DNA of 64,000 bases, taken from the NCBI GenBank assembly GCA_039583875.1, contig CM077159.1, positions 99,747,707-99,811,706 on the forward strand. Direction: 5' to 3'. Below, piece by piece: positions 29,716-60,537 of the stretch (the first letter of the stretch is position 1; each line of letters opens with the position of its first letter). Under the pieces are notes generated by a model. The model saw only the letters and a list, made by a program, of their open reading frames with translations, did not search any database and was not told the origin of the DNA. A program made the translations under genes and the position numbers. The DNA comes from Platanthera guangdongensis (taxonomy: Eukaryota; Streptophyta; Magnoliopsida; Asparagales; Orchidaceae).

Positions 29716-29721
29716 GAGAAT

Positions 29722-30165
29722 TGGTGTTGACACTTCAGAAAAATGGTGTCGACACATCTAGGAAGTAAGTGTCAACACTTCAGAGAATTAGTGTCGACAC
29801 ATGTAGAAGTAGGTGTCGACACATCCAAGGTGGTGTCGACACTTAGGCTTTACTTAGAATTAGCCTGGTTAAGTCTCGACTAAGTGTCGAGCTAAGTGGT
29901 GTCGACACATAAACAAGTGTCGACACATATATTCTGTCGACTATACTTGTGTCGACACATAGTTGTCGAGATATTATAAGTCTGTGTCGACACTTTTCAA
30001 CAGTCTCGACACAATTTGAGTATTTTGACGTGCCCTTTCATCTTTGATTCTAGAAAGTTATAAATAGGATTTCGCCATTGTCTGTCGACACGCTCACCAA
30101 AGTTTCGAGACCAAACTTGTGTGTCGACACCTCTCTTCTCTAGATTCAAAATTCTTCAAACCCTA
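29722..30165 (+). promoter_or_regulatory. Internal palindrome array and promoter upstream of ORF3 (SIRE-A)
   Basis: About a dozen GTGTCGACAC copies or close variants are followed by TATAAATA at 30059-30066 and, 100 bp on, by the ATG of ORF3. The word is the same as in the LTR array, but the surrounding sequence differs (ACTTCAG and ACATCTAGG contexts instead of ACTTAGC and ACCCAG). It is therefore not simply a displaced LTR. SIRE-B has the same arrangement at 50017-50497. Confidence 0.8.
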
Positions 30166-33032
30166 ATGGCGCCCAAGCTCGAAGAGAATGTGAATGAAGG
30201 TTATGAACTCGTGCGGCATGCTTTTGATGACGCGGAACCAGATATCAAAAGCGTGATAACCCTAATTGCAGAGACAGGGTTAGAGTTTCTGGTTTCAGAG
30301 CCGATCAAGATTTGGAAGAAAGAAGTCTTGGAATTCCTGAATGGAGCTACAGTAGATGAATCTGGACTCAAGATAAAGTCTAGAGTTCATGGGGCAAAGG
30401 TGAAAGTCTCTCCTAAGAGTCTGAGAAAGGTACTACAACTACCTAGGACTAAGGAAGTAGAAGATGTTTCTGCTTCTAAAACTAGGGAAGCACTAACATG
30501 GTGTGGTTTGGATTCCAATATGAAAATTGGATTTGTGTTCAATAGGAAGGGGATGAACATGCAAGGGAAATTTCTATCTGAAATTGTTGGCAGGGTTATC
30601 TTGAGCAAGCCTGGAGGGCATGACAGAGTATCAGCTTATATGTTCAGCCTCATGACAAGGATTATTTTTAAACTAGAAACTGATTGGTCTGCAGTAATGT
30701 TTGAAAAGATAAAAGAAAGTATGAAGAAGCCCAATTTGGGTAGGATTCTAAGTCTATACCTAGCTGGTAGTATACCAGAGGTAATGACTCAAGCTGCAGG
30801 ATCCAAAATTAACCACAAGAGGAGAATGGATTTGAGGATCTTCTCTAAGTGGGATAGGGTCTTGACCAAGGAAATGTCAACTCCTGAGAAGGAAACACCC
30901 CTGAAGAAGAAGAAGAAGAAGACAACCCCAGTGGCTCAAGAATCCTCTAGTAGCTCTGAAGAGCAAGTTATCTTTACTCCAGATGATGAACAAGACACTG
31001 GAAATGGTGGACAATCTCCTGCTCGACAAGAAGATGCACCAAGGCAGGGAGAGCTACCACCAGCAAGCCCAATTCACCAGGATTCAATCCAGGGGGAGCC
31101 TCTACTGGTGGATGATCCAACTCCACTAGAAAGTGAACAAGCTACACACACAATACTTGAGGTAATAACTGAAATCAACCAATTAGATTTCTCTATTGAA
31201 AATGAAGATATGACTGACAGATTGTCTGATGTTAATCAGGAACCTCAGATTCCTAGTCAATCCCAAGATGTTGTCATGGAAGACACATCTGTTACTTCTC
31301 AAGTGGTATCTGATCAAGTGGTTGATGAGATAAGAGAATCTCCACCCCATCCTCAACAAGAATTTACCCTAGAAGAGCTATTCCCAGATCTTCTACAAAC
31401 TGACTTTGAGAAAGAAAGTGCTGCTGCTGAGGGGGAGAAAGTAATTATTGAGGGGGAGCAAGTGGAGAATATAGAGAAAACTGAAGGCACAGAGACTGAG
31501 GTGCCAAAAGATGCTGAAGGGCTCCAAAGGACTGAGAAGGAGTTACCGTCAAGCCCTAAGGACAGGGTTGATATTGCAAGCACATCTGCTTTTGAAGATG
31601 AAGAGGCTACAAGAGCCAAGAAGAGAAAATTTCAAGTTTTCAAGAGGAGGAGCCAGAATTATAAAAAAAGCTCTGCAAACAATTGCACCACAGCCTGCAC
31701 CACAGCCAGCCCCATCGACAGATTTTAGTTCTCTGATGGTTGCTTTACAAATAAAGATGGATGAGCAAAGGCTAGCAATTGAAAAATATATAGATGAAAG
31801 TCATAAGTCTCTGCAGTTTGATCTTGCACAAGACATTAAGTTCATCAGATTTGAAATGAATCTGAATAAGAAAGAAATGACTGACTGCTTTCATAAGGGA
31901 GAAAATGCAGTAGTCTATTTAGCTACTCATCAAGAAAATATCAAGAAACAAATTGAAGACATGGCAGTAAAGCAAGGCTATGTCCTGGAAAACCAGATAA
32001 GAATGAATGACAATTTGACTGAATCACACAATGTGATAGTCACTGAGATGCAGAATCTGGCTGCATCTCAAACTACAGCAAGGACTACTACCCAGGAAGA
32101 GTTTGATAAGAAGTTACAAGAAGGGATCACTGCTGTTACTTCTGCAATTCAAGATTCTCAGAAGTTAATCACTGAAAAACTCCAAAGGTTGAAACCTTTC
32201 TACAAGGATGGAGTAAATTATCTGAATGCCCAAATAAGATTTCAGAAAGATGATCTGAGGGATCACATTGAAAGAGAAGTCATAAAGGGGGAGAGGGTGG
32301 TAGTCAAAGCAGGCTCTGATCATGCAAAATGGATTTCCAATTCCATCAGAGCCACCCTTGGATATCCTCCATTATGTGATGATGATAATGTTGCAGAGTC
32401 TGGGATTAATCCTACATATCTTGGAGGTGAGCAAGCTGAAGTAGCTCAAGTGATCTATCCTCCACCAGACTTTGATATGATGCATGCAGATATACAGTCA
32501 ATGTATAGCCCACCTGAGGGAAATCAGAAGGTCATCATAGAAAAAGTAGTTCAGCCAGTGCCAGAGGCTATACTGAAAGAACAAGAAGCTTTGCTCAAAG
32601 AACAAGAGACTCAATTGTCTAAGAAGAGATTCAGGGAGCAAGCTGAACTTAGGCCTGACTTTGAACAATGGAGCCCCACCTCCAGGAATATCATTCTGAC
32701 TGCATGGAAGGCTGCCAAAGACAATATTGTGGACAGAGGCAAATGGTATTCTGATGTGGAGTGGAGGAAGCATGAGAACAGGCAAGAAGTCATTGTGCAA
32801 TACAGAAGAAAGGCTAAGATGGGAAAGCTACCTCCTACTGCCCAGGAGCCTAGCAAGTACTTTCCAAAGCCTTATCATTACTTTGAAAGGCAAAAGATCA
32901 AAGCTGAAGAGCAAAAAAAAGAAGGATCTTGAAGGGAAGAAGTCTGTTGCTGCTGAAGATACTGAAGCTCCAGTCCAAGCAAAGATACAATCTGGGAAGG
33001 GCATAGTGATCAAGGAGCCTGAGCAGCAATAG
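30166..33032 (+). pseudogene. SIRE-A ORF3 (two frameshifts)
   Basis: It starts at the ATG at 30166 (MAPKLEENVNEGYELVRHAF). The N-terminal 220 residues look globular and are well conserved with SIRE-B (KVSPKSLRKVLQLPR, TWCGLDSNMKIG, PNLGRILSLYLAGSIPEVM). An acidic, proline/glutamine-rich middle, a helical region (DEQRLAIEKYIDESHKSLQ) and a basic C-terminus (RQEVIVQYRRKAKMGKLPP) follow. Frameshifts occur in A-runs near 31665 and 32915. No signal peptide or membrane segment is visible. The position after pol is where SIRE elements carry an 'envelope-like' ORF, but the sequence gives no support for an envelope. Confidence 0.85.
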
Positions 33033-33301
33033 GATAGAATTTTTCTTTAGTTTATAGTTGTAATCATTTTAAACTTTCTATAAACTTTTGAATAATGAAT
33101 ATGATAAAGTTGTTAGAACAATGTGATGTGTGTTAAATCTATTACATTATTGTTCTGAGATAATTGAGTTTACATGTTTTGTTTAATACATGTTTATGTA
33201 CTTACCGGTTATATAATCATGTTTTACATCATATTGTGATTTTGTTATGTATGGTGTATATCATTGACTAAGGGTTATGACTTCTCCAAATAGGGGGAGA
33301 T
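33033..33301 (+). other. SIRE-A 3' untranslated region and polypurine tract
   Basis: A/T-rich and gene-free. It ends with the polypurine tract AAATAGGGGGAGAT (33288-33301) just before the 3' LTR. Confidence 0.8.
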
Positions 33302-42564: not shown

Positions 42565-42709
42565 TGTTGGGTACATTGGTCAAATGTACCTGATTTGAAG
42601 AAGCCTGACCCAACTCAATGATATACATCATAATGTATTTGATGTGTGTTTGAGTTACTTGTGCAGGTTAGGTATTCACTAGACTGAAGCTAAAAGTTTC
42701 TAAGTCCAT

Positions 42710-43645
42710 GTGTCGACACCCAGAGGGAAAGTGTCGACACTTGAGAAAGCTTGTGTCGACACCCAGACAAGCAGTGTCGACACTTGGAGTCATTGTGTCG
42801 ACACCTGGGATGAAGAGTCGACACCAGACAGAAAGTGTCGACACTTGGAGCTGTGTCGACACTCAGTGAAGAAGTATGCAGAAAAGCTGTGTCGACACTT
42901 AGCAGAAGTGTCGACACCTAGAAGAGCTGAGTCTACATCAGAAAGTGTCGACACTTGGAGTTGTGTCGACACACAGCAAAATTCTGCAGAGACAAAGGAC
43001 AAGTGTCGACACTCAACACAATGTGTCGACACTCAATCAGCAGAGTCAACATATGAAGAATGTGTCGACACTCAGCACAATATGTCGACACACAACCAGA
43101 AGAGTCAACACTTGAAGTAAGTGTCGACACTCAGCACAATGTGTCGACACTTAGCTAAAGACTCTACACTTGAAGAAAGTGTCGACACCCAGCACAATGT
43201 GTCGACACTTAGTTGAAGACTTTACACTTGAAGAAAGTGTCGACACAAGGAGCTGTGTCGACACTTAGCAAAGAACAGAAAAGTTTACAAAATATTCTAA
43301 GTACAAGTGTCGACACTAAGGGAATGTGTCGACACTCAGCTGAGGAAACAAAATTAAAGACTTGTGTCGACACCAAGAAGTAGTGTCGACACTTGACAGT
43401 TTCAACACATGAAGATGTGTCGACACAAAGGAGTTGTGTCGACACTTAGAAGAATACAGTTAAAGAATGAAGAACAAGACTTGTGTCGACACTCATTTTC
43501 AGTGTCGACACATGCAGAAGAATCTGGGTCGAGACATACAAGGAATTGTGTCGACATCTTGTAGACTTGTGTCGACACTGACACAACATGTGTCGACACT
43601 TGGTCTATAAGTGTCGACACTTAAGAACAGAAAGTCTCGACACTA
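42710..43645. repeat. GTGTCGACAC palindrome array, SIRE-B 5' LTR
   Basis: I count roughly 33 perfect or one-off copies in about 930 bp, spaced mostly 15-40 bp. Several alternate with decayed words such as GAGTCAACA or GACTCTACAC at the position of a missing copy. Confidence 0.95.
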
Positions 43646-43776
43646 TCTGACTGTTAGAGAATTTCAAGAAGTGACTGGTTGACATGACAGCTGCCGATCC
43701 AGCCGGTCTACAGCAACTGTCAGAGAAATCAGAAGTCTGTTATGAACTGGACCAGCCGGTTACCATGAAGGAAGCC

Positions 43777-43784
43777 TATAAATA
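43777..43784 (+). promoter_or_regulatory. TATA box, SIRE-B 5' LTR
   Basis: TATAAATA about 130 bp downstream of the array; the 3' LTR equivalent is 59650-59657. Confidence 0.8.
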
Positions 43785-44665
43785 GGCACCCATAGTTTAC
43801 AGAAACTGATTGATTGTTGTTATTACAAGTAGTGAGAATAATAGAAGTGTTTGATCAGATTAAATCAGAAAAGTGATACACAGAGGATCAACACAAGAAG
43901 ATCTGACAGTCCAACTGCAGATCTAAGAAGTTGGAGAGAGAGAGCTCCAATCAAGAATTCAGTCTTTGGAACTAAGGCTGAGAAGAAGGATTCAGAATCA
44001 TCTGGATCTCAAGAAGCAGAGGTCAAGGATTAACTGCAGAGGATTCAGACTAATTCAGTTCTACTCAAGAAGCTTTGAAGGAAGCTAAGTCAGTTTGGAT
44101 CTAGCTGAGTTCTTCCAAGAACTCTTCAAGAAACTCTCAACTCCTCTCTTATTTTCTGAGTTGTAGAGTTAATTATTGTATTTCAATTTTAACTTGTAGG
44201 ATCCATTAAATCTGAGAGAATTGTAAGCCTATATTATAAAGGCTGAGGGTAGGGCTTGGTTGCCTGAGTGTAGGAGTTGAAGAACTCTGAGTGTAGGCCT
44301 TAATTGGCTGAGTGTAGGCCTGGGTGGCTGAGTGTAGGCCCTTGTGGCTGAGTGTAAGGCTTTGGGCCTGAGGTGTAGGAACCTAGTTGGGTTCTGAGAT
44401 AGTGGAGAAGATTGGCTGAATCTAGTACACTGCTAGATAGGCGAAGGGGGAAAGTGGATGTACCCAAAGATTGGGGAACCACTATAAATTTGTGTGTCTG
44501 CTGTGCTGTGCTGTGCTGTGAATTAACTGTTTATATTCTGTTATTGCTGTTAGCTGTAGAAATCTGTGAGATAACTGTTTTGCTGCCAACAAAGTTTTAA
44601 AAAGGTTTAGGTCACCTATTCACCCCCCCCCCCCCTCTAGGTGTTTAGGTACCATAACTTTCAAG

Positions 44666-44677
44666 TGGTATCAGAGG
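44666..44677 (+). other. Primer-binding site, initiator tRNA-Met (SIRE-B)
   Basis: TGGTATCAGAGG two bases after the LTR end, complementary to the initiator tRNA-Met 3' end over its first 11 bases. Confidence 0.9.
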
Positions 44678-44768
44678 GAGGTTCCTCAAAAAGGACTAAC
44701 TGTCTGAGGAGATCCAGTTTGGCAGATTCAGTATAAGTCAGAAAACAGTTTCAAGAAAATCAAGAAAC

Positions 44769-46808
44769 ATGGGTTCTTCAGAGAATCACAAGGAATTGGG
44801 TTCAATGAAACTGCCCATATGCAGAAAAGAGATTTTTGGAATCTGGAAAGAGAGGGTAAGGCTGTTCATGGAAGCCTCTGACCCTAGAATCTACATCACA
44901 GTCAAAGAGGGGCCATATGTGCCCATGAAGATCTCAGTATTGGATGCAAATCATAGGACTCCAAAGGATTTCTCTGAGATGACCAAGGATGAAATTGTCC
45001 TAGCCACTATGGACAAAAGGGCACAAAACATAATACTAAGTGCTATTGATGATGCAACTTTTCAGAACCTAATTCACTGTAAAACAGCAAAAGAAATGTG
45101 GGATACCCTCATTGTCTATATGGAAGGTTCTGAAGAAGTTAGGCAAGATAGAAAGTCCTTGCTTAATCAAGAGTATGAGAGCTTTAGGCAAGGAAGAGGA
45201 GATAGCATCACTGAATGCTACAAGAAGTTCTATAGAATTGTTAATGAACTCATGTCCTATGGAAGAGAGTTCACTAACTATGAATTGAATGATAAGTTCT
45301 TGAGGTCCCTAACCAAAGATTGGGACACTAAGATCTGTGCCATCAGAGAAATGGCAAAGTTGGAAGAAATTCCTCCTCCCACACTGTTTGGCAAGTTGCT
45401 GTCTTATGAGATGCAGCTGTCTGTGAGAAAAGAGGAGGAAAAATGAACAAGGACTGAGCACAGGGAAAGGACTGTTGCCTTCAAGTCAGAAGTACCTAGA
45501 AAGGGCAGGACTAAGTCATCAACTCCTCCTCCAGAGGTAGTTGAATCAGAATCTGATGAGTCTGTTAGAACAAAGTCTACAAGCAGTGAAAGTGATGAAG
45601 ACTTTGCTGCATTCACCAGACATTTTCAGAAATTCCTGAAGAAGAAACAGTGGAGGTCCAGACCTTCATTTTCCAAAGGGAAAGAAGTTCAGTATCAGGA
45701 GAAGAAGTCTTCAAAGAAGGACAAGAAAAAGACAAAGACTAGCAAGGCAACTGGGTCTAGGATAGTGTGTTACTGCTGCAATAGACAGGGTCATGTTATT
45801 GCAAATTGTCCTGAGAGAAGAAAAGAATCCAGTGACAAAAAGAAGACTCACTTCAAAGGAAAGAAGGAGAAGTCCTTTGTTGCAAAGAATGAGAAGACTC
45901 TTTCAGACATTTCTTCTTCAGACACTGAGACAGATGCTGAAGCCTACATAGGGCTATTTGCTGAAGAAGAAGAGGAGTTTATGCAGATCATGGAATCAAT
46001 CTATGAACAAGAAGAGTGTCAGTGCCAAGGACTGATGGCATTGACTGAAAGTACCAAAATCCTGGAGCAGCCAGGACCTAGTCAGGTACAAAGTCCAACT
46101 CAAAGTTCAGATTTTAGTTCTAGTTCAGAGTCAGATTCATCTTCATCAAGTGATGGAAGTGTTTCTGAATCTGAGGGAGATATTCATCAGCTCTTAGATG
46201 AATATAAAGTACTGTTGCAAGCCTATAAGAAAAGCAAGTCCCTTGTCAAAAGTCAGGCAAAGGAAATTGCTGATCTAAAGGCAGCTGCAACAGACTTTGA
46301 GAAGGAATTTGATCAAAAGCTCAATGAGGTAGCCAGGCTGAAACACATTACTGTGATTCAGATGGGAACTATCACTTATAAAAATGATCAAATTAAGTTA
46401 CTGGAGATCAATCTCCAGAAGGAAAGAGAGCTAGTTGCTAGGTTTTCAAAACCTAAATCAGTGCTACCCTTGATTGATGAATTTGTTCATCATAAAGGAA
46501 AGGCTGGATTGGGTTTTATTAAACCAGCTAGGACTGTTAAGGATCAGTCCAAGTCCAAGGGCAAAGCCCCAACATTCAACAAGCATGCTGTAGTCAAGAC
46601 AGCAAAGGTTGTACCTAAGCAAAGGTACAACAAGTTTGAATGCTGGTGCTGTGGCAAGATTGGCCATTTTGCAATGGACTGTTGGCACAATGCCAGTGCC
46701 AAGGTGAGTAGCAAGTTACCTGGTGGAAAGCCAACAGGTAGCTTTGTCAAGTTGCAAACTAACAATCACCAAGGACCCAAGTTTACTTTGGGTTCTAAGG
46801 TTCATTAA
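44769..46808 (+). pseudogene. SIRE-B gag (one in-frame TGA)
   Basis: 680 codons from the ATG to TAA, with an in-frame TGA at 45444-45446. The Gag core matches SIRE-A (EIFGIWKERVRLFMEA, MWDTLIVYMEGSEEVRQ). Zinc knuckles are CYCCNRQGHVIANC near residue 334 and CWCCGKIGHFAMDC near residue 624. Between them is a serine-rich acidic stretch and a heptad-like helical region. The gag stop TAA is followed directly by TTTGTTTTGCAG and continues in the same frame into protease, so pol may be reached by stop readthrough or by splicing. Confidence 0.85.
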
Positions 46809-49800
46809 TTTGTTTTGCAGGTGAATCCAAGTGGCCATACCCCAACATGGTACTTGGATAGTGGATGTTCCAGACATATGACTGGAACAAGGGGACTGCT
46901 GAAGGACTACATTCCAATCAAAAATGGTCCTAAAGTGACCTTTGGTGGTTCTGAAAAATGAATCATCAAAGGGTTTGGTAACATCTCTTCAAACCTTGTT
47001 ACCATTACTCAAGTGGCTTATGTTAAAGGGTTGAAACACAACCTCATTAGTATAAGTCAGTTAAGTGATGTAGGGTATGACATCTCATTTGTTAAAAATG
47101 GTTGTCATATCAAGAGGTCAAGTGATCAAGAGATCATTTTGACAGGATATAGAAAGAGGAATGTCTACTGCTTAGACATTATGATTGAGAACAATGGTTC
47201 TCCTGTTTGTCTTGTAGCTGATGAGACAGTCTCTCATTGTGTCAAGTGGCACAAGAGGCTAGCTCATCTTAACTACAAGACTATTAGCAAACTCTTTAGC
47301 AAAGAGTTAGTGAGGAATGGTCCTCAAGTTAAGTGTGTCAAAGATGGCATTTGCTCAGCTTGTCAAAAGGGCAAGCAGACTAAATCCACCTTTAGAAGCT
47401 TAGACAACAAAGATGCTGTGAGGTGTTTATACCTCTTGCATATGGATCTATTTGGTCCAATGCCAGTTCACAGCTTAGGTAGGAAGGTCTATACCTTTGT
47501 AGTTGTTGATGACTACTCAAGGTTTTCCTGAGTGTTCTTCTTAAAGCAGAAATCTGAAACACTTAGTGTCTTCCATAGCTTTGTTAAGCAAATTCAGAAT
47601 GAATTGAACTGTACAGTGGTCAAAATTAGAAGTGACCATGGTACTGAGTTTCAGTCTGAAAGCATGACAAAACTGTGTGAAGATTTTGGGATATTTCAAG
47701 AATTCTCTTCACCTAGAACACCTCAGCAAAATGGCATTGCTGAAAGGAAGAATAGGACCTTGATAGAGGCTGGTAGGACCCTATTAAGTGATTCATCACT
47801 GCCAGAGTATTTCTGGGCTGAAGCAGTTAACACTGCATGCCATATGATAAATAGGGCTACAATCACTAAAAGGTTAAATAAGACCCCCTATGAGGTTGTG
47901 AAAGGCAGGAAACCAAATCTATCCTATTTCAGGATTTTTGGTTGCAAATGCTTCATACTTAACAATGGAAAGTCTTACTTAACTAAGTTTGCTGCCAAGT
48001 CCCAAGAGGGAGTGTTTGTTGGGTACAGTAATAATAGTAAGGCTTATAGAGTCTACAACTTGACTACACAAGTTGTAGAGGAGTCTGTGCATGTAGTTTT
48101 TGATGAGACAAAACTAATTAACAATGAGTTGTCTAGCAATGTATGCAGCCCCACAGGTCTTACTAAGAAGATGGACAAGCTAACCATAGAAGATGTACCT
48201 GCTGCAAGACAGCAAATAGAAGAAGATGGCTTATGTCCAGGGGGAGAACTACATGTACAAGGAGCTGAAGAAGTACAAGGAACTCAGCTTGATGAAGATG
48301 CTGAAGAAGTTCAACCAGGAGTAAGGATGCCTCCAGCCAACAGGCATCTAAGAGATCATCCAGTAGAGCTGATTATTGGAGATCCAAGACAAGGTGTTCA
48401 GACAAGGAGCAGAAATCAGAATGCTTGTAGTATATTCAAGTTTTCTGTCTCAAATAGAACCAAAGAAATTTGAAGAAGCTATACAAGATCCACAGTGGAC
48501 TGAAGCAATGCAGGAAGAACTTAATCAGTTCAAAAGGTGCAAGGTTTGGGACTTGGTTCCTAAACCTAAAGATCACAATGTGATAGGAACAAAGTGGATC
48601 TATAGGAATAAGTTAGATGAACAAGGAGTCATCATTAAGAATAAAGCAAGACTGGTTGCAAAAGGATATAGGCAAGAAGAAGGTATTGATTTTGATCAAA
48701 CCTTTGCTCCAGTAGCCAGACTGGAAGCCATAAGGATGTTCTTGGCCTATGCAACCTATCAAGGATTCAAGGTATACCAAATGGATGTCAAGTCAGCATT
48801 CCTAAATGGTAATTTGAAAGAAGAAGTCTATGTGGAGCAGCCTGCAGGTTTTGTTGATCCAACTCTACCTCATTATGTCTATAGACTTAGGAAAGCATTA
48901 TATGGGTTAAAACAAGCACCTAGAGCTTGGTATGAAACCCTATCTAGTTTCCTCATTGAGAACAAGTTCTCAAGGGGGAAAATAGATAAGACTCTATTCC
49001 TTAGGGAATCTAGAGGCAAAGTCATACTTGTCCAAATATATGTAGATGACATTATATTTGGGTCTACTGAAAGTAGCCTTTGCAAAAAGTTTGCAAAGCT
49101 TATGCAAAGTCAATTTGAGATGAGTAGTATGGGAGAACTAAAGTTTTTCTTGGGTCTCCAAGTTAAACAGACTGGAAGTGGTCTATCCATATGTCAGTCC
49201 AAGTTCACCCTAGAACTCATAAGGAAGTATGGTATGGATTCATCCAGTACCATGAAGACTCCTATGGGGTCAAGTATGTCTCTGAGCAAGGATGATGCAG
49301 GGAAACCTGTAGATGAGACCTTGTATAGAGGGATAGTTGGCTCCCTACTATACTTGACTGCAAGTAGGCCTGACATTATGTATGCTACATGTGTTTGTGC
49401 CAGGTATCAAGCCTGCCCTAAAGAGTCTCACTTGACTGCAGTCAAGAGAATCTTGAGATATCTAAAGGGCACACCTTATCTAGGCCTCTGGTACCCTAGG
49501 AATGGAGATTTTGATCTAACAGGCTATTCAGATGCAGACTTTGCAGGATGCAAAGAAGATAGAAAGAGCACTACTGGATCCTGTCAATTCCTAGGTGGAA
49601 GACTCATTTCATGGAGTAGCAAGAAGCAAACTAGTGTGGCTATCTCCACAGCTGAGTCAGAATATGTAGCTGCAGGAAGTTGCTGTGCTCAACTTCTGTG
49701 GATTCAACATCAGCTAGAAGACTATGGATTTCAGGTAAGTAGAACTCCACTTTTCTGTGATTCTACAAGTGCTATTTCAATAGCTAATAATCCTGTATCA

Positions 49801-49983
49801 CATAGTAGAACTAAACATATTGAGATTAAATATCACTTTCTTAGGGAGCATGTAGAAAGAAATGATATTGCACTTGAATATGTTAAAACTGATAATCAGA
49901 TAGCTGATATGTTTACTAAGCCCTTAGAAGAAGCTAAGTTCAATAGGTTCAAAATTGAACTAGGTATGATAAACTTAGACTAA
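46809..49983 (+). pseudogene. SIRE-B pol: protease, integrase, RT, RNase H
   Basis: Protease WYLDSGCSRHMTG; pre-integrase zinc site HKRLAHLNYKT and CSACQKGKQT; integrase [82 protein letters not shown], catalytic YVDDIIFGS; RNase [62 protein letters not shown]. These are SIRE/Maximus-type signatures. Breaks: TGA at 46959-46961 and 47529-47531, and a frameshift near 48440 between integrase and RT. The RT/RNase H part is open for more than 500 codons. Confidence 0.9.
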
Positions 49984-50497
49984 GTTTACAGAACTAAAAA
50001 TTGGCTAAGTAAAAAGGTGTCGACACATAGACAAGTCTATGTCGACACAGAATAGTAAGTGTCGACACTTCAGGAAAATGGTGTCGACACATCTAGGAAG
50101 TTGGTGTCGACACTTCAGAATGTTAGTGTCGACACATGTCGAGTTGGTGTCGACACATCCAATGAGGTGTCGACACTTAAGTTTTACTCAGAATTTTCTA
50201 AGTAAAGTCTCGACTACATGTCGAGTAGTGTGATGTCGACACTTAACCAAGTGTCGACACATAAAATCTGATGACTAAACTTGTGTCGACACATGTGTGT
50301 CGAGACATTATAAGTCAGTGTCGACACTTATTGCCAGTGTCGACACATCTTTAGTAATCCCTCCCGCCTGTTCGTCTTCAAACCAGAAAGGTATAAATAG
50401 GATTCTGTCTTTGTTTGTCGACACGCTTTCAGAGTTTCGAGACCAAAACTGCTGTGTCGACATTTCTCTTTTCTCAAGACTAAATCTCTAAACCCTA
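49984..50497 (+). promoter_or_regulatory. Internal palindrome array and promoter upstream of ORF3 (SIRE-B)
   Basis: It starts 34 bp after the RNase H stop. About 13 GTGTCGACAC copies (from 50017) precede TATAAATA at 50392-50399, two more lie after the TATA box, and the ORF3 ATG follows at 50498. The array ends about 50 bp before the TATA box, closer than in the LTR (about 130 bp). SIRE-A has the same arrangement at 29722-30165, so it was conserved through their divergence. Confidence 0.85.
50392..50399 (+). promoter_or_regulatory. Internal TATA box (SIRE-B ORF3)
   Basis: TATAAATAGGATT; SIRE-A has TATAAATAGGATT at 30059. Confidence 0.8.
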
Positions 50498-53338
50498 ATG
50501 GCTCCCAAGCTCGAGGAGAATGTCAATGAAGGCTATGAGCTGGTTCGTGGCGCATTCGACGATGGCGATCAAGAAGTCAAATCGGTGATAACCCTAGTCA
50601 CCGATTCTGGATTGGAGTATCTAGTTTCAGAACCAACTAAAATATGGAAGAAGGAAGTACTCGAATTCCTTGCTGGAGCTTCTGTAGATGACTCAGGTTA
50701 CAAGATCAAATCAAGAGTTCATGGCACCAAGGTCAAGATTTCACCCAAATCTCTGAGAAAGGTACTTCAGCTACCTAAAATTCAAGAAGAAGAGGAAGTG
50801 ACTACATCCAAGACCAGAGAAACACTTACCTGGTGTGGTCTAGATTCTAAGCTGAAGATAGGATCTGTATTCAACAGGAGAGGAATGAATACCCAAGGAA
50901 AGTTCCTGTCAGAAATTGTGGGGAAAGTTATTCTCAGTAAGACTGGAGGGCATGACAGGGTGTCAGCCTCCATGTTCAGTATTATGACCAGAATTATCTT
51001 CAACCTCAAAACAGACTGGTCAATGGTTGTCTATGAGAAAGTTAAGGAGAGTCTGAAGAAGCCCAATCTGGGCAGAATACTAAGTCTCTACCTGGCTGGT
51101 ATAATACCAGAGGTAATGAGCAATGCTGCTGGTACTAAAATCAATCACATGAGAAGGATGGATATGAGGATATTTTCAAGATGGGAATGAGTGCTGTCCA
51201 AGGAAGTTCCTACCCCAGAAAAGCAAGTTTCTAAGAAAGATTCCCCTCCAAAGAAGAAGAGGAAGATAGCTCCTGTGACACAGGAGTCCTCCAGCAGTTC
51301 AGGTAGTGAAGAACTAGTTGTTTTCACTCCTGATAGTCATGAGGAAGAGGCAGTAGACAAGACCCCTGCTGCTAAAGATGTAGCTGAGATTCAGGGGGAG
51401 CTGCCTCACACTAGCCCCATCCCTAGGGATCCAAGCCAGGGGGAGTCTCCAGCTGTAGAAAAACCCTCTACACTGGAGAGTGAGCAAGCTACACTTATTA
51501 TCCAAGAGGTACTTTCTGACCTCAATACTTTAGATTTGTCTGTAATAGATTCTGATTTGTCTGATATCCATCAGCAAACTCAGCAAGCAAATCAAGAACC
51601 AGATGTTGTTCTCCAAGACACATCTGCTGTTGTGCAAAAAGTTCCTGATAAAGTAGTTGAAGAACCAAGTACTTCTCCTGCACAGTCACCTCCTGAATAC
51701 ACCATGGAAGATCTATTTCTAAATCTAGAACAGGAGGACTTTGACATGGATAAAGTTGGTGCTGCTGAAGAGAAGGGTGCTGCTGCTGAGGGGGAGACAC
51801 TGCAAGTTCAGGAAGAGCCTATAAGGCAGGAAAGTGAGAAAGCACTTGATGTGCAAGCTGACAAAACATCAAGCCCTAAGGATAGGGTGAATATAGCCAG
51901 TACTTCAGAGTCTGAGGAAGATGAGACTGAACAAGCCAAGAAGAAGCAATTCTTTGTATTCAAAAGAAGGAGTCAGAGCTACAAGAAGGCTCTACAAACT
52001 GTTGCTCAACACTCCCTAGTCCAACAAGCTCCATCAACTGATTACAGTGGCTTAATGGTAGCAATGCAAGTTAAGCTGGATGAGCACAGGAGGGCCATAG
52101 AGAAATATATTGATGAAGGCCACAAGTCTTTACAATTTGACTTAGCTCAAGACATCAAGTCAATAAGATTTGAGATGAACCTGAATAAAAAAGAAAAGAA
52201 TGAATGCTTCCACAAGGGTGGAAATGCAGTGGTGTACCTGGCTACACATCAAGAACAGATAAAAGAAAAGGTAGATGATATAGCACTGAAGCAAGGCTAT
52301 GTGCTGGAAAATCAGTTGAGAATGAATGATAATTTGACTGCATCCCACAATGCTATAGTCACTGAACTGAAGAATAAGCCAGCTGAATCTTCCACATCTG
52401 CTGCTGCCAAGGCTGAATTTGATAAAGCATTTCAAGATGAAATTGCTGCTGTCAAGACTGCAATTAAGGATTCACAGAAGGTCATTTCTGAACAGCTTAC
52501 AAAGCTTAGACCTTATTTTAAGGATGGCATCAGGTACTTGGACAGCCAAATCAGGTTCCAGAAAGATGATGTAAGAGATCATGTTGAACAAGAAGTCATA
52601 AAGGGGGAGAGGGTGTTAGTCAAAGCTAGCTCTGACCATGCCAAATGGATTTCTAACTCCATCAGAGCTACACTGGGCTATCCTCCCCTGTGTGATGATG
52701 ATAATGTAGCTGAATCAGGTATTCAAAGTGCATATCTTGGAGGTGAGCAACAGGAAGTCGCTCAGGTGATCTATCCACCTCCAGATTTTGACATGGTTCA
52801 TGCAGAAGTAAGCACAATGTATAGTCCAACTACTGGAAAGCCTAATGTTGTTCTGGAAAAGGTTGTTCAACCTGTTACAGCAGCTATGCAAGAGGCTATG
52901 GACAAAGAAGAAGAGACAAGGCTGTCAAAGAAGAAGTTCAGGGAACTAGCTGAGCAAAAACCTGATTTTGAACAGTGGAGCCCTACTTCTAGGAACATCA
53001 TTCTCACAGCCTGGAAAGCAGCCAAGGACAATGCACATGAGAGGAACAAATGGTTCTCAGAAGCAGAATGGAGGAAGCATGAGATTAGGCAGGAAGCCAT
53101 TGTCCAGTATAGAAGGAAGGCTAAGTTAGGAAAGCTACCTCCTACAGCTGTGGAGCCTAGCAAGCACTTTCCTAAGCCCTATCATTATTTTGAGAGGCAG
53201 AAAATCAAGGCTGAAGAACAAAAGAAGAAGGACTCCAAAGGCAAGAAGACTGCTGATACTGAGCCTGCTGCTGCTGCTGTAAAGGCCAAAGTACAAGCTG
53301 GGAAAGGCATAGTTATAAAAGAGCCTGATCAGAACTAG
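50498..53338 (+). pseudogene. SIRE-B ORF3 (one in-frame TGA)
   Basis: About 946 codons from the ATG, interrupted only by TGA at 51188-51190 (codon 231). The N-terminal domain (residues 1-230) has VHGTKVKISPKSLRKVLQLP, TWCGLDSKLKIGSVFNRRG and KKPNLGRILSLYLAG. Residues about 235-490 are acidic and low-complexity. Residues about 510-650 are helical and partly coiled-coil-like (DEHRRAIEKYIDEGHKSLQ). The C-terminus is basic (RQEAIVQYRRKAKLGKLPP and a lysine-rich end). No signal peptide, transmembrane helix or cysteine cluster is seen, so an envelope role is not supported. Basic tail, acidic middle and own promoter fit a nuclear regulatory or chromatin protein; this is inference. Confidence 0.85.
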
Positions 53339-53343
53339 ACTAA
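53339..53343 (+). other. Target-site duplication (left) of CopC
   Basis: ACTAA, repeated at 58136-58140. Confidence 0.95.
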
Positions 53344-53717
53344 TGTTAGAAAGTAGAGAAAGGAAGCGAAAAGAAGAGAACAAGCCGAATAAACTTTTGA
53401 ATAATCGAAATTTTATTATCCAAAAAAGATGACTATTACAAAGGTATGCCCTCCCTTATATAGAATGGAGGAGAGAAGAGAGAATACAAATAAGAGATGT
53501 GGGACTAAAATTTACAAGCTAAGCGGACTGTACAAAGTAAACCGCACAGGCCGCGCGGTTAGACAGAAGGACTAACCGCACGGCTTACAATAAGAGATGC
53601 AGAGAGGTCGCCTGTGAAGAGTGCTAGACCGCCCGGTTTACAAGTCGCCGAGTCAAACCGCCAGACCGCGCGGTCTCTAACCCGCCAAGACAGACCGCCC
53701 GGTCTCCAACTTCAACA
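53344..53717 (-). mobile_element. CopC 3' LTR
   Basis: On the minus strand TGTTGAAGTTGG...TTTCTAACA. TATA box (TATATAA) at 53456-53462. The upstream part, 53545-53717, carries dyads GACCGCGCGGTC, GACCGCCCGGTC and AACC...GGTT variants. Confidence 0.95.
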
Positions 53718-53726
53718 CTCCCCCTC
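53718..53726 (-). other. Polypurine tract of CopC
   Basis: GAGGGGGAG on the minus strand, directly before the LTR and overlapping the pol stop codon. Confidence 0.85.
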
Positions 53727-56700
53727 AAGCTGGAGCATATATATCAATCATGCCCAGCTTGTCGCAAACATGCAGAAACGAGGCGGAGACTGGCTTGGTG
53801 AAGATGTCGGCTAGCTCTTTATCAGATGTGACAAACGGAGTGCAAATCTGTTCTTTTAAAATCTCTTCACGAATGAAATGGCAGTCAACCTCAATGTGCT
53901 TTGTTCTTTCATGGAATACCGGATTTTTGGAGATGTATATGGCGGCCTTGTTATCACAGAACATAGGTAGAGGATGGTTGTACACCTCTCCTAAATCTAG
54001 CATGAGAGCCCGCAACCATTTCAACTCACAAGTGGTTGACGCCATACTGCGATACTCAGCTTCTGCACTGGACCTGGAGACAACAGACTGCTTTTTACTC
54101 TTCCAGCTCACCAGATTTCCCCCAACAAAGGTGCAAAAACCTGAGGTAGACTTGCGATCCCCTTTGTCATCAGCATAACTTGCATCTGAGTAGGCTTCAA
54201 TCCTCAGATGACCATTCTTCTGAAACAGTAATCCTTTCCCAGGCGCTGCTTTGACATATTCCAAGATCCGCAAGGCGGACTGAAGATGACAATCCCTGGG
54301 CGCTTGCATGAATTGACTCACCTTGCCCACAGCATAAGAAATGTCGGGTCTGGTCACTGTGAGATATATGAGCTTACCAACCAGACGCTTGTACCGCGAA
54401 CTATCTGAAAGAAGAGGCGAATCATCTGTCCAGGTTTTGTCCTCCCCAATAGCCATGGGACATCGGGCAGGTTTAGCTCCAGTCAATCCTGCCTCTTTTA
54501 AAAGATCAAGAGCATACTTACGCTGAGAGAGAACTAAGGAGTCGGGCTTCCGAGAGAGTTCGATCCCCAGAAAGTACTTTGGAGAGCCCATATCTTTAGT
54601 GATCAGATGTTGGCGAAGATGTAGCTTTGTCAGGGCTACCCCTTCCTGGTCATCGCCAGTGAGAAGAATATCATCGACGTATACAGCAAGAACAACCAGC
54701 CCAGAAGGAGTTTTGCGAATAAAGAGAGAGTGATCAGCAGAGCTTCGCACAAAACCAACAGCCGCCACAATACCGCTGAACTTGTCAAACCAAGCTCGAG
54801 GACTCTGCTTGAGGCCATAAATTGCCTTCTGCAGCCGGCATACTCGTGTCTCCCCCTGAGCAACATACCCAGGAGGTTGCTCCATGTAAACGGCCTCGTG
54901 AAGATCACCATAAAGGAAGGCATTCTTGACGTCCAGCTGAGAAATTGGCCAATCCCGATTGACGGCCACAGAGAGAAGAACCCGGATTGTGCTGAGACGA
55001 GCCACAGGGGAGAAGGTGTCAAAGTAATCAACCCCATAGGTCTGAGTAAAGCCCTTAGCCACAAGGCGAGCCTTATACCGATCCACAGTGCCGTCTGGGC
55101 TAAATTTGACCACAAAGACCCAGCGACAGCCAACAACATCAGTGCCAAAGGGAGGAGGAACAAGAGTCCAGGTACCCCGCTCAGTGAGGGTCGCCATTTC
55201 CTCATCCATGGCCATCTTCCAGTGAGGAATAGCAAGGGCCTCCTGATAGGAGCGGGGTGTGGCAGTGGCAGAGATAGCCAGTGCAAAGGCCCTGCGAGAA
55301 GGAGTAAGACGATCATAGGAAACAACCGCAGCAAGGGGGTGTAAGGTGCACGTCCGCACCCCTTTGCGAAGAGCTATAGGAAGATCCAGGTCAGCCGGGC
55401 CCGCGGCATCCGGAGCATCCGTGGTAGAGAAAGCTGGCCCGGGAGAAGAGAGCGACGGCAGCGGAGAGGAGGGAGAGGGTGGTGGAGAAGGGAGAGAGAG
55501 AGGTGGAGGAAGAGGAGGGGGTGGAGACGGTGTAGTGGTGGAGAGTGGAGGAGGAGACGAGGGAACGAAGGGAATGGCAGGAGAATCAGAAGCTGGGAGA
55601 AGAGGAGAAGAGGCATCCGAGAAGTAGGAGGTATTCTCGAAGAAGGTGACGTCAGCAGAGACGAACTGCTTACGAAGGACGGGATCAAAGCAACAGTAGC
55701 CTTTCTGAGTGGTGGAATACCCCAGAAAGACACATTTGGTGGAGCGAGGGGAGAGCTTATCACGGGTGGCAGAAGGGGCATGCACAAAGGCAGTGCATCC
55801 AAAGATTTGGAGAGGGAGATGAAACGGCTCCTTGCCCGGATACAAAATGGAGAACGGGGTTTGGCCATGGAGAACCGTGGAGGGAATGCGATTGATGAGG
55901 TAGCAGGCAAGGAGAACAGCATAGCCCCAATAGGAGCGAGGAACATGCATCTGGGTCATCAAGGTGCGAGCGACATCGAGCAGGTGTCGGTTTTTGCGTT
56001 CGGCTACACCATTTTGTTGTGAAGAATAGACACAACTAGTTTGATGAAGAATCCCATTTTGCATGCAGAATGTAGAGAAGTCACGACTGAGATATTCTGC
56101 GGCATTATCAGACCGAAAAACTTTGATAGAAACATCAAACTGAGTTTTGATCATGAGATAGAAGGATGTCCATACAGAGAATAATTCGGAGCGATCTTTT
56201 AACAGATACACCCACGTACAGCGAGAGAAATCATCAATAAACGTGACAAAATAGGAACTACCCCGACCAATGGTAAGAGTAGGAGAAGGACCCCAGATGT
56301 CGGAGTGGATAAGATCAAACGGACGTGTAGAGCTACGAACGTGCTTTGGAGGGAAGGAGGAGCGGTGATGCTTGCCAAGCTGACAGACCTCACAGTTGAG
56401 CGGAGGACTTTGAGGAGGAAGGTGGGGCAGAAGTTGACGAAGAAGACGGGGAGGAGCATGACCAAGGCGGAGATGCCATTGGAGAAGATCTGTGGAGGTG
56501 GAGGAGAAGGTGGAAAAAGCAGAAATGTTGTCTAGGAAGTATAAGCCGCCACTCTCAGTCCCAGTAGCAATCGTCCGTTGGGAGTCCGGATCCTGAAAAG
56601 AGCAAGAAGTAGAAGTAAATGTGACGGAACACTGTAATTGCTTGCAAAGAGATGTAACAGATAATAAGTTGCACGGGAACTGGGGCACATATAGAGTATC

Positions 56701-56925
56701 CGCCAAGTGAAGAGACGGGGTGACATGAACTATCCCTGTGCCATGAACTGATGATGAAGAGCCGTCAGCGAGAGTAACTGGGGGCAAGCGAGCATGTTTT
56801 TCTAGGAGAGAGAAACACGGGAGATGGCCGGTCATATGATTCGTAGCACCAGTGTCGATCAGCCATTTGCCCTGAGTAACAACGTGTGCACGACCAGAAG
56901 ACGTGACAACCGAGGCGAAAGCCAT
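53725..56925 (-). CDS. CopC pol polyprotein: protease, integrase, RT, RNase H
   Basis: The first in-frame ATG is at 56925, giving 1066 residues; the frame is open to about 57006 and a TAG lies just upstream. Protease starts almost at once (KWLIDTGATNHMTG, residues about 20-33). Pre-integrase zinc site: HLRLGHAPPRLL and CEVCQLGKHH. Integrase: FIDDFSRCTWVYLL, FRSDNAAEYLS, SSQQNGVAERKNRHL. A proline/serine-rich linker follows. RT: CRWVFVVKFSPDGTVDRYK, LDVKNAFLYGDLHEAVYME, catalytic YVDDILLTG. RNase H: YSDASYADDKGDRKSTSGFC, RSSAEAEYRSMASTTCEL, RTKHIEVDCHFIREEI, DIFTKPV. No stop or frameshift is seen, and all catalytic motifs are present, in a copy that lacks any Gag. Confidence 0.9.
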   Translation of the reverse strand: MAFASVVTSSGRAHVVTQGKWLIDTGATNHMTGHLPCFSLLEKHARLPPVTLADGSSSSVHGTGIVHVTPSLHLADTLYVPQFPCNLLSVTSLCKQLQCSVTFTSTSCSFQDPDSQRTIATGTESGGLYFLDNISAFSTFSSTSTDLLQWHLRLGHAPPRLLRQLLPHLPPQSPPLNCEVCQLGKHHRSSFPPKHVRSSTRPFDLIHSDIWGPSPTLTIGRGSSYFVTFIDDFSRCTWVYLLKDRSELFSVWTSFYLMIKTQFDVSIKVFRSDNAAEYLSRDFSTFCMQNGILHQTSCVYSSQQNGVAERKNRHLLDVARTLMTQMHVPRSYWGYAVLLACYLINRIPSTVLHGQTPFSILYPGKEPFHLPLQIFGCTAFVHAPSATRDKLSPRSTKCVFLGYSTTQKGYCCFDPVLRKQFVSADVTFFENTSYFSDASSPLLPASDSPAIPFVPSSPPPLSTTTPSPPPPLPPPLSLPSPPPSPSSPLPSLSSPGPAFSTTDAPDAAGPADLDLPIALRKGVRTCTLHPLAAVVSYDRLTPSRRAFALAISATATPRSYQEALAIPHWKMAMDEEMATLTERGTWTLVPPPFGTDVVGCRWVFVVKFSPDGTVDRYKARLVAKGFTQTYGVDYFDTFSPVARLSTIRVLLSVAVNRDWPISQLDVKNAFLYGDLHEAVYMEQPPGYVAQGETRVCRLQKAIYGLKQSPRAWFDKFSGIVAAVGFVRSSADHSLFIRKTPSGLVVLAVYVDDILLTGDDQEGVALTKLHLRQHLITKDMGSPKYFLGIELSRKPDSLVLSQRKYALDLLKEAGLTGAKPARCPMAIGEDKTWTDDSPLLSDSSRYKRLVGKLIYLTVTRPDISYAVGKVSQFMQAPRDCHLQSALRILEYVKAAPGKGLLFQKNGHLRIEAYSDASYADDKGDRKSTSGFCTFVGGNLVSWKSKKQSVVSRSSAEAEYRSMASTTCELKWLRALMLDLGEVYNHPLPMFCDNKAAIYISKNPVFHERTKHIEVDCHFIREEILKEQICTPFVTSDKELADIFTKPVSASFLHVCDKLGMIDIYAPA

Positions 56926-57743
56926 GAAGGGAGAAAGAAGAAACTGCAGCGGTCTCGGTGACAGCACACCAGCGGCACGAAGGGCCACGACCAAGGTGCA
57001 GAGCACAAGCCGCGCGACTAAACCAGGAGGTCGCGGCGACTAACAAGAGAAGCGGCTAAGAGCGAAGAGGCGGAGAGGCCGCTCAAACAAGGAAGAATCC
57101 GCGTGAAACCGCGGCGGGAACAAAAGGGAAGAAGCCGCTTGAACACGAGCGGCTAGGATCCAGATCAAGGCACAGCGGGGAAGAAGTCGCGCGGACTGCA
57201 AAGGGCCGAGCGAACAGAAGAGAGGAGAAGAGCAGGTGACCGCGACCAAGATGCGGGTAAGAAAGGGACAACCCGCACGGTCAGGCAGATCACAGCAGTT
57301 GCGAGAATGCGGTCAAGGGCACAGCGGGGAAGAGGTCGCGCGGACTGAAAAGGCCGAGCGAACAGAAGAGAGGAGAAGAGCAGGTGACCGCGACCAAGAT
57401 GCGGGTAAGAAAGGAACAACCCGCACGGTCAGGCAGATCACAGCAGCAAACCGCGAGTGCAGAGACAGCACACGCGGACAGAGACAGACCGCAGCGACTA
57501 GGAAGTCGGAGCGGCAGGAAAGAGCAAGGAGCGCGGCGACACGGACACAGGTCGCTGCGACAAAGAGCAGGAGGAGAAGAGAAACAAGAAGAGCAAGCCG
57601 CGCAAACACGCAGCGGACAGAAACAAGCCGCGCGGATAGAAACAAGCCGCGCGGACAGAGGAGAAGGCAAGCCGCGAACAAGCCGCAGAACGCGGAATAC
57701 AAGCCGCGAACAACAGAGAGCGCACAGAATCAGGAGGAAAAGA
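56926..57743 (-). other. CopC leader in place of gag, with 148-bp tandem duplication
   Basis: G/C-rich and full of GCCGCG and CGCGGAC words. A unit starting at 57166 is repeated from 57314 (period about 148 bp) with only a few differences. The longest frames on either strand are repetitive, biased translations without a capsid domain or zinc knuckle. It may have arisen by deletion of gag and expansion of leader sequence. Confidence 0.75.
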
Positions 57744-57761
57744 CCGTGTCCTCTGATACCA
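57744..57761 (-). other. Primer-binding site, initiator tRNA-Met (CopC)
   Basis: Minus strand TGGTATCAGAGGACACGG directly after the LTR end. Confidence 0.9.
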
Positions 57762-58140: not shown

Positions 58141-58437
58141 GATTAGACTAAGACACATTGTTGTAATCTTTTACATATGCAATATTTTTGTAAAACAATG
58201 GAAATGTATTAAAACAATGTAAGAACAATTTTTGATAAATATATTTCATGATTGTTCAGTAGAATGTGTCTAATTCTTGTTTGTTATGTAATGCTGAATG
58301 AGTATACATGTGTTCTTTATTACATGTTTAAGTTTACCCTGTTGATATATACCTGCTTTACATCATTCTCTAATTTTTAATTATGAGTGGTGTATATCAT
58401 TGACTAAGGGTTATGACTTCTCCAAATAGGGGGAGAT
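58141..58437 (+). other. SIRE-B 3' untranslated region and polypurine tract
   Basis: Gene-free A/T-rich remainder of SIRE-B after CopC, resembling 33033-33301 of SIRE-A. The polypurine tract AAATAGGGGGAGAT is at 58424-58437. Confidence 0.8.
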
Positions 58438-60537
58438 TGTTGGGTACATTGGTCAAATGTACCTGATTTGAAGAAGCCTGACCCAACTCAATGATATACA
58501 TCATAATGTATTTGATGTGTGTTTGAGTTACTTGTGCAGGTTAGGTATTCACTAGACTGAAGCTAAAAGTTTCTAAGTCCATGTGTCGACACCCAGAGGG
58601 AAAGTGTCGACACTTGAGAAAGCTTGTGTCGACACCCAGACAAGCAGTGTCGACACTTGGAGTCATTGTGTCGACACCTGGGATGAAGAGTCGACACCAG
58701 ACAGAAAGTGTCGACACTTGGAGCTGTGTCGACACTCAGTGAAGAAGTATGCAGAAAAGCTGTGTCGACACTTAGCAGAAGTGTCGACACCTAGAAGAGC
58801 TGAGTATACATCAGAAAGTGTCGACACTTGGAGTTGTGTCGACACTCAGCAAAATTCTGCAGAGACAAAGGGCAAGTGTCGACACTCAACACAATGTGTC
58901 GACACTCAATCAGCAGAGTCAACATATGAAGAATGTGTCGACACTCAGCACAATATGTCGACACACAACCAGAAGAGTCAACACTTGAAGTAAGTGTCGA
59001 CACTCAGCACAATGTGTCGACACTTAGCTAAAGACTCTACACTTGAAGAAAGTGTCGACACCCAGCACAATGTGTCGACACTTAGTTGAAGACTCTACAC
59101 TTGAAGAGAGTGTCGACACAAGGAGCTGTGTCGACACTTAGCAAAGAACAGAAAAGTTTACAAAATATTCTAAGTACAAGTGTCGACACTAAGGGAATGT
59201 GTCGACACTCAGCTGAGGAAACAAAATTAAAGACTTGTGTCGACACCAAGAAGTAGTGTCGACACTTGACAGTTTCAACACATGAAGATGTGTCGACACA
59301 AAGGAGTTGTGTCGACACTTAGAAGAATACTGTTAAAGAATGAAGAACAAGACTTGTGTCGACACTCATTTTCAGTGTCGACACATGCAGAAGAATCTGG
59401 GTCGAGACATACAAGGAATTGTGTCGACATCTTGTAGACTTGTGTCGACACTGACACAACATGTGTCGACACTTGGTCTATAAGTGTCGACACTTAAGAA
59501 CAGAAAGTCTCGACACTATCTGACTGTTAGAGAATTTCAAGAAGTGACTGGTTGACATGACAGCTGCCGATCCAGCCGGTCTACAGCAACTGTCAGAGAA
59601 ATCAGAAGTCTGTTATGAACTGGACCAGCCGGTTACCATGAAGGAAGCCTATAAATAGGCACTCATAGTTTACAGAAACTGATTGATTGTTGTTATTACA
59701 AGTAGTGAGAATAATAGAAGTGTTTGATCAGATTAAATCAGAAAAGTGATACATAGAGGATCAACACAAGAAGATCTGACAGTCCAACTACAGATCTAAG
59801 AAGTTGGAGAGAGAGAGCTCCAATCAAGAATTCAGTCTTTGGAACTAAGGCTGAGAAGAAGGATTCAGAATCATCTGGATCTCAAGAAGCAGAGGTCAAG
59901 GATTAACTGCAGAGGATTCAGACTAATTCAGTTCTACTCAAGAAGCTTTGAAGGAAGCTAAGTCAGTTTGGATCTAGCTGAGTTCTTCCAAGAACTCTTC
60001 AAGAAACTCTCAACTCCTCTCTAATTTTCTGAGTTGTAGAGTTAATTATTGTATTTCAATTTTAACTTGTAGGATCCATTGGATCTGAGAGAATTGTAAG
60101 CCTATATTATAAAGGCTGAGGGTAGGGCTTGGTTTCCTGAGTGTAGGAGTTGAAGAACTCTGAGTGTAGGCCTTAATTGGCTGAGTGTAGGCCTGGGTGG
60201 CTGAGTGTAGGCCCTTGTGGCTGAGTGTAAGGCTTTGGGCCTGAGGTGTAGGAACCTAGTTGGGTTCTGAGATAGTGGAGAAGATTGGCTGAATCTAGTA
60301 CACTGCTAGATAGGCGAAGGGGGAAAGTGGATGTACCCAAAGATTGGGGAACCACTATAAATTTGTGTGTCTGCTGTGCTGTGTTGTGCTGTGAATTAAC
60401 TGTTTATATTCTGTTATTGCTGTTAGCTGTAGAAATCTGTGAGATAACTGTTTTGCTGCCAATAAAGTTTTAAAAAGGTTTAGGTCACCTATTCACCCCC
60501 CCCCCCCCCTCTAGGTGTTTAGGTACCATAACTTTCA
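58438..60537 (+). mobile_element. SIRE-B 3' LTR
   Basis: 2100 bp, TGTTGGG...CTTTCA, followed by the target duplication GATGC (60538-60542). TATA box at 59650-59657; 14-C run at 60496-60509. Confidence 0.95.
58583..59522. repeat. GTGTCGACAC palindrome array, SIRE-B 3' LTR
   Basis: Same array as 42710-43645, with only a few substitutions, mainly in the spacers. Confidence 0.95.

Follow-up and report, generated by a model that had tools for sequence, protein, structure and literature searches.

A putative internal promoter for the third gene of an orchid Sirevirus, with a palindromic word that recurs in the LTR and in other mobile elements

In the element SIRE-B of Platanthera guangdongensis, the linker between pol and the third gene (ORF3) carries an array of the palindromic word GTGTCGACAC, followed by a TATA box and a conserved leader. 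We consider it likely, on the basis of sequence comparison, that positions 50017-50497 of the window (the whole stretch of 64,000 nucleotides that was analysed) form an internal RNA polymerase II promoter for ORF3, read by a host protein. This protein would bind the GTGTCGACAC words in the linker as well as those in the LTR. Transcription from the LTR would yield the genomic RNA for gag-pol, and ORF3, which the pol stop and additional stops separate from gag-pol, would obtain an RNA of its own. The TATAAATA box at 50392 would set the start some 31 bp downstream, inside the conserved TGTCGACACGCT word, and the predicted product is a short mRNA for ORF3, whose leader of approximately 75 nt lacks an upstream ATG. 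The LTR and linker promoters would then be co-regulated.

Results and discussion

The SIRE-B element

The window contains two related elements of the Sirevirus type, SIRE-A and SIRE-B (Table 1). SIRE-B is a Sirevirus (Ty1/copia) element. Its gag, integrase and RT are of the copia type, as PF14223, PF25597 and PF07727 were all found above the cut-off, and GATGC flanks the element on both outer sides. Several Sirevirus signals were recovered: the terminal PPT AGGGGGAG is followed by AT and the TG of the LTR (58428-58439), a run of 13 C residues about 40 bp before the end of the 5' LTR corresponds to the polyC-rich integrase signal, and a third ORF with one in-frame stop occupies the place of the ENV-like gene between pol and the 3' LTR. 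SIRE-A has the same octamer as the SIRE-B PPT at 33292, followed by ATTG. Further copies of AGGGGGAG in SIRE-B (at 51393, 51438, 51789 and 52602) all lie within the ORF3 frame and one extra copy is located in pol (48239); 3' of ORF3, where Sireviruses carry several clustered PPT copies ahead of the 3' LTR, the terminal copy is the only one found. At the place of the Sirevirus PBS TATCAGAGC, after the 5' LTR, SIRE-B has TATCAGAGG, which agrees in 8 of 9 bases.

Table 1. Positions of the features discussed (window coordinates, unless a locus is named).
Feature	Position	Strand	Remarks
5' LTR of SIRE-B	42565..44663	+	GTGTCGACAC in 31 exact copies (42710-43620), with TATAAATA downstream at 43777
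gag and pol frames of SIRE-B	44769..49983	+	gag, integrase, RT; end of RNase H at 49983
Linker word array	50017..50346	+	11 exact and 3 one-mismatch GTGTCGACAC words, upstream of the TATA box
TATAAATA TATA box	50392..50399	+	106-109 bp upstream of the ATG; 26 of 27 linkers have the exact sequence
TGTCGACACGCT word that spans the predicted start	50416..50427	+	CA at 50422-50423; the A is +31 from the TATA box
Conserved leader stretches TTTCGAGACC and TGTGTCGACA	50437..50461	+	pairwise identity 0.947 and 0.922
ORF3 of SIRE-B	50498..53338	+	in-frame stop at codon 231
CpG-normal first 165 nt of ORF3	50498..50662	+	41 of 48 CGs outside TCGA in seven members
Terminal PPT AGGGGGAG of SIRE-B	58428..58437	+	AT next, then the TG that starts the 3' LTR
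3' LTR of SIRE-B	58438..60537	+	99.2% identity to the 5' LTR
Homologous region of SIRE-A (array, TATA box, leader)	29724..30166	+	up to the ORF3 ATG at 30166
GTGTCGACAC arrays beside a MULE/FAR1 transposase ORF	L022 4779-5151; L024 4922-5417
GTGTCGACAC arrays in Ty3-type LTR-like sequence	L008 4904-5229; L013 5011-5246

The pol stop (49981-49983) and the ORF3 ATG (50498) are 514 bp apart and in different frames. Every one of the three frames of the linker is interrupted by stops, and read-through from pol into ORF3 was therefore rejected for the SIRE-B copy. The stop at codon 231 is absent at the same codon in six other members (SIRE-A, L023, L026, L027, L028 and L029), four of which carry ORF3 stops elsewhere within the examined stretch. 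The N-terminus of ORF3 weakly resembles PF20167 (E-value 1.2e-6, which does not reach the curated cut-off). AlphaFold modelled residues 1-230 too poorly for a fold search (mean pLDDT 48.3), and the notion that ORF3 is a recognisable DNA-binding protein was dropped. Homologue searches retrieved only proteins of Platanthera orchids (one match in one search, seven in another). The relatives P0002-P0008 are annotated as host proteins in Platanthera genomes, P0003 being fused to RT and P0008 being named Annexin D1; genes of such elements therefore seem to have entered the gene models. Plasmid records gave no match, which is uninformative for a plant.

Two further features were observed in the window. 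Directly past the ORF3 stop of SIRE-B lies a nested insertion (53343-58135) with two identical direct terminal repeats of 375 bp and a minus-strand frame of 1093 amino acids (53725-57006). SIRE-A jumps at 29721-29724 from a match to SIRE-B position 47553, in the integrase, to the linker array at 50059, so that RT and RNase H are missing.

The word array in the linker

The linker of SIRE-B (49984-50497) contains 11 exact and five one-mismatch copies of GTGTCGACAC, versus a mean of 0.005 exact copies (maximum 1) and 0.085 copies with at most one mismatch (maximum 2) in 2000 dinucleotide shuffles of the same stretch. The preliminary description had counted about 13 copies ahead of the TATA box, which is a fair estimate; two of the one-mismatch words follow the box. 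The order that it gave (array, TATAAATA, ORF3 ATG) was likewise recovered, and the same word indeed fills the LTR promoter ahead of an identical TATA box (Table 1). No exact GTGTCGACAC word was found in gag-pol or ORF3 of SIRE-B.

From the differing spacers it had been argued that the array is no misplaced piece of LTR. In agreement with this, the self-comparison of the window (word size 20) listed no match between LTR and linker of at least 80 bases, and blastn of the linker against related LTRs returned word-driven matches only, at about 70-74%; LTR and linker have the words in common and not the spacers, and an origin as displaced LTR was rejected. A simple tandem repeat was rejected as well: the spacing of the words and the spacers themselves vary, and homologous words align across seven diverged members. 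The corresponding linker of SIRE-A has words at 29724-30012 that precede TATAAATA at 30059, and two more words after it. Between SIRE-A and SIRE-B the identity is 0.958 in the words, versus 0.752 in the spacers and 0.734 in ORF3.

Conservation across 27 linkers

A total of 31 linker regions of the same genome were examined, four of which were set apart before counting: L009 and L025 (family C, described below, without a canonical TATA box), L019 (ORF3 42% identical; TATAAATA is retained 114 bp before its ATG and the words are degenerate only) and L030 (no ORF3 found). The 27 counted linkers consist of the two copies in the window, five loci chosen by their words (L023 and L026-L029) and 20 loci that were picked by hand, blind to the words, down a list of 150 ORF3 protein matches. 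These 20 are not independent of each other, because all 150 matches are relatives of L028 at 80-90%.

An alignment of family members had been proposed earlier as a check on the conservation of array and TATA box, and the 27 linkers allow such a comparison. TATAAATA is exact in all linkers except L044, which has CATAAATA, and TGTCGACACGCT starts 24 bp after the TATA box in every one of them (exact in 17, with one mismatch in 10). Words are present in all 20 linkers picked by ORF3, and 18 of these have 10 to 14 words with at most one mismatch within 620 bp upstream of the ATG, counting those in the leader. Members with an intact ORF3 and no array, which would have spoken against the promoter, were not encountered among the 27; yet L035, whose upstream part is foreign sequence, has three words only, and L034 has six in a shortened linker.

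Mean identities were calculated over the 298 of 351 pairs that are less than 85% identical, with gaps scored as mismatches. They amount to 0.992 for the TATA box, 0.943 for the start word, 0.729 for the upstream words and 0.633 for the spacers, and the leader outside its two conserved stretches scores 0.741. In ORF3, compared over 46 codons, third codon positions score 0.592 and the first two positions 0.873. The upstream words thus stand only moderately above the spacers in the wider clade, their identity being pulled down by lost words because of the gap scoring. The leader lacked an upstream ATG in all seven members checked. Exact TATAAATA was found in five of ten LTR stretches and is absent from both LTRs of SIRE-A and from the stretches of L023, L005 and L021 (some of them are cut short), and so within this sample the linker retains the box more often than the LTR does.

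The main rival to an internal promoter is splicing, which we regard as unlikely. An RNA initiated in the LTR would join a donor near the 5' leader to a YAG just upstream of the TATA box, or to the pyrimidine-rich stretch before the ATG; the words would then serve something else. Directly upstream of the box there is indeed a pyrimidine-rich stretch followed by a YAG. Of the 27 linkers, 26 retain this YAG, among them L044, whose loss of the exact TATA box counts against the promoter; conversely, L034 has kept the TATA box and lacks the YAG. The Platanthera gene model P0003, a prediction, joins RT/RNase H to ORF3 through residues that read like the leader, and the accessible text of Bousios et al. 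2010 mentions predicted splice acceptors for the ENV genes of BAGY2 and Athila (PMC2829016). Splicing would, however, leave unexplained the near-invariant TATAAATA at its fixed offset of 24 bp from the start word, and also the word arrays, which would fall in the intron. The AG nearer the ATG, within the pyrimidine-rich stretch, does not occupy one column in the alignment of seven members.

CpG pattern

The body of SIRE-B is nearly devoid of CG: gag-pol (44664-49983) has none, versus 209 expected, and the rest of ORF3 (50663-53338) has one. The other members examined are nearly as CG-free. Five gag or gag-pol stretches taken together contain 4 CG, versus about 512 expected. The ratio of found to expected CpG was pooled over seven members (six in the pol bin, since SIRE-A is without that part). 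In pol (-1600 to -520 relative to the ORF3 ATG) it is 0.01, in the array 1.03 and in the leader 1.17; within ORF3 it is 1.10 at 0-100, 0.38 at 100-200, 0.08 at 200-300 and 0.00-0.03 beyond. CpG is thus normal from about 520 bp before to about 100 bp after the ATG, and the ratio in pol and most of ORF3 is 0.01-0.02. Splicing of an LTR-initiated RNA does not account for this CpG island reaching into ORF3.

In the array, 103 of 117 CGs lie within TCGA, as do 144 of 159 CGs upstream of the TATA box in the LTR; those at the beginning of ORF3 lie mostly outside it (Table 1). The first 200 columns of ORF3 contain 24 CG sites, and because only three of them are common to at least five of the seven members, the CG density is maintained while the sites turn over. 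The commonest alternatives at these sites are TG and CA (60 of 116), as decay of methylated CG would give. We read this pattern as a region, from the array to early ORF3, that may have been kept less methylated in transmitted copies, like the surroundings of an active start. Such a reading is not simple, because the CGs downstream of the TATA box in the LTR have been purged (10 versus 135 expected in four LTRs).

The arrays could alternatively be docking sites for an anti-silencing protein resembling VANC, which would keep the LTR and the ORF3 start unmethylated, with a secondary role as promoter; we judge this to be even less likely than splicing. It is in line with the clustering of a short word in non-coding regions, with the different words of different families, with CpG preserved at the arrays and purged elsewhere, and with a third array inside gag in family C. 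The motifs of VANC21 and VANC6 behave in this way, and those of VANC6 also occur in AT9TSD1, which is unrelated to VANDAL, according to the accessible text of PMC5735166. However, the purged CpGs downstream of the LTR TATA box imply that the array in the LTR leaves its own start region unprotected. Moreover, no binding protein is known for the word (the model of the ORF3 N-terminus being poor, as noted above), and a word common to Ty1/copia, Ty3-type and MULE elements suits a host factor better than a protein of the element itself, though such sharing is known for VANC6. In the VANC/VANDAL system of Arabidopsis the binder is encoded by the element and its binding has been shown (accessible text of PMC5735166), whereas the word described here spans unrelated superfamilies. 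Finally, an action of the words in RNA, e.g. mutual pairing in packaging or dimerisation of the genomic RNA, is highly improbable: palindromic words can pair mutually and the linker should lie within the genomic RNA, but such a role accounts neither for the fixed offset of a conserved TATA box, nor for the position of the LTR words ahead of the TATA box there, nor for arrays next to the transposase ORF of a MULE.

The same word in other elements

Twenty loci were chosen by GTGTCGACAC word pairs six bases apart, a sample that is small and selected by the word. Genome-wide, the word-pair pattern gave 598 matches in the forward reading and none when read backwards. Several of the 20 arrays sit outside Sireviruses. 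In L008 and L013 a Ty3-type integrase (PF24626) lies on the 5' side of the array, and the LTR-like stretch that contains the array has TATATAT a further 224-225 bp on; L005, L007, L014 and L018 have a second Ty3-type repeat in common. In L022 and L024 the array is followed by TTTAAAT 39 bp on, a leader and a MULE/FAR1 transposase ORF (the ORF was scanned in L022). L011 has TATATAT 43 bp beyond the array, and L016, L017 and L020 have TATA-like matches near arrays without an assigned orientation. Within 450 bp and in the orientation taken, no TATA-like match was found for either array of L019 or for L005, L006, L007, L014 and L018; on its opposite side, L005 does have one, 381 bp away. The TATA-like matches outside Sireviruses were counted without a chance control. 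The order of array, TATA-like box and leader therefore adjoins the genes of some, not all, of the unrelated elements.

Since the words are common across superfamilies and the spacers are not, the occurrence of one word in Ty1/copia, Ty3-type and MULE elements suggests a host factor. Auxin response factors, with their TGTC sites, and DREB-type proteins, with CGAC sites, are possible candidates. A more general interpretation, for which the odds seem to us to fall a little short of even, is that the host may define GTGTCGACAC as a promoter word, and that three kinds of element in one plant genome (Sireviruses, Ty3-type retrotransposons and MULE DNA transposons) have each built it into arrays on the side of their genes. 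The Sirevirus would have used the word twice, and as its CpGs survive in CpG-depleted elements, the ORF3 promoter would record a region kept unmethylated in the copies passed on.

The preliminary description had proposed two promoters under one and the same factor. The internal promoter is supported by the comparison (TATA box and its offset, leader, CpG pattern, other elements); that both promoters answer to a single factor is something we infer, and family C, which has another word in both places, fits this. A separate observation concerns an unclassified repeat at window positions 11251-11366, which mixes GTGTCGACAC with CTCGACGA and CACGGGCGTG words.

Relation to known systems

The arrangement had been thought to be undescribed in SIRE-type elements. 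This is contradicted by the literature, as a paper of 2010 had already reported clusters of words ahead of ENV and favoured an internal promoter (PMC2829016). According to the accessible text of that paper, Bousios et al. found palindromic repeated motifs (RM) in the LTR, ahead of the TATA box, of 13 Sireviruses; copies recur in the linker of the nine elements that bear ENV, with 77 of 79 copies upstream of ENV, and in none of the four that lack it. An internal ENV promoter was proposed in 2002 and favoured in 2010, without being conclusively identified (PMC2829016). The layout in SIRE-B is the same, with many copies of a palindromic word both before the TATA box of the LTR and before the third gene, and the CpG islands at the LTR and linker arrays are a further likeness to the RM boxes of that text. 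The Vitis RM CGGTCGACCG has GTCGAC in common with the word described here (PMC2829016). The RM boxes have a CGG-CCG core in all elements except Tnd-1, as far as the accessible text goes, whereas the core is TCGA here, and neither GTGTCGACAC nor the TTCGWCGAA word of family C contains CGG-CCG. The near-total CpG purge of the body and the sharing of the word with other superfamilies are seen here and not in the accessible part of PMC2829016. The array layout itself was thus already described in 2010; added here are the conserved TATA box and start word, the CpG pattern, the word of a divergent family and the presence of the word in other elements.

Other third genes offer partial parallels. Grande of maize is a Ty3-type element. 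Its gene23 is likewise an extra gene of an LTR retrotransposon with its own upstream promoter (accessible text of PMC7264820), but it is antisense, whereas ORF3 is in sense orientation and has an upstream array with the word of the LTR. In SIRE1 of soybean, also a Sirevirus with a third gene behind pol, ENV is expressed via stop-codon suppression (cited in PMC2829016); unlike there, pol and ORF3 are separated here by the linker with its frame change and stops. No mapped start or TATA box before ENV was found in the open-access literature, as far as its accessible text extends (including PMC7264820, PMC3414828, PMC12844716, PMC5735166 and PMC10398659).

How Sireviruses express a third gene that is spaced from pol had stayed open in the accessible text of PMC2829016, where no ENV promoter is conclusively identified; the conserved TATA box and start word now give an exact predicted site for the ORF3 promoter. 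If the word is common to three superfamilies of elements in one genome, it could also help to trace the host factor that permits the transcription of mobile elements. A 2026 paper on sunflower reports that CG methylation drops dramatically across the central part of SIRE elements (PMC12844716). Given the CG-free body of the elements studied here, such a dip could reflect missing CG sites rather than missing methylation.

Divergent word families

In family C (L009, and L010 with L025) TTCGWCGAA words occur in both LTR and linker, as seen by eye in two elements, and the linker has TTATATC in place of a canonical TATA box. A third TTCGWCGAA array lies inside the gag frame (L009 1765-2010; L010 8240-8500), between the gag and integrase domains, where it is read as Arg-rich repeats with an in-frame stop in it or at its end in both copies. 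The words are therefore not always promoter marks. The LTR of this family, with its TTCGACGAA-type words, also has a block of GTGTCGACAC (L009 9308-9440; L010 4908-5083).

In L030 no match to ORF3 was recovered, and the linker is without an array. Prediction from the L022 gag places PPT-like repeats after the RNase H of L030, and then an LTR whose palindrome is again a different one. In family C, a stretch of the form GT...TTTTCTGATGCAG at the gag-pol junction (L010 8670-8720) resembles, by eye, a short intron or a splice acceptor.
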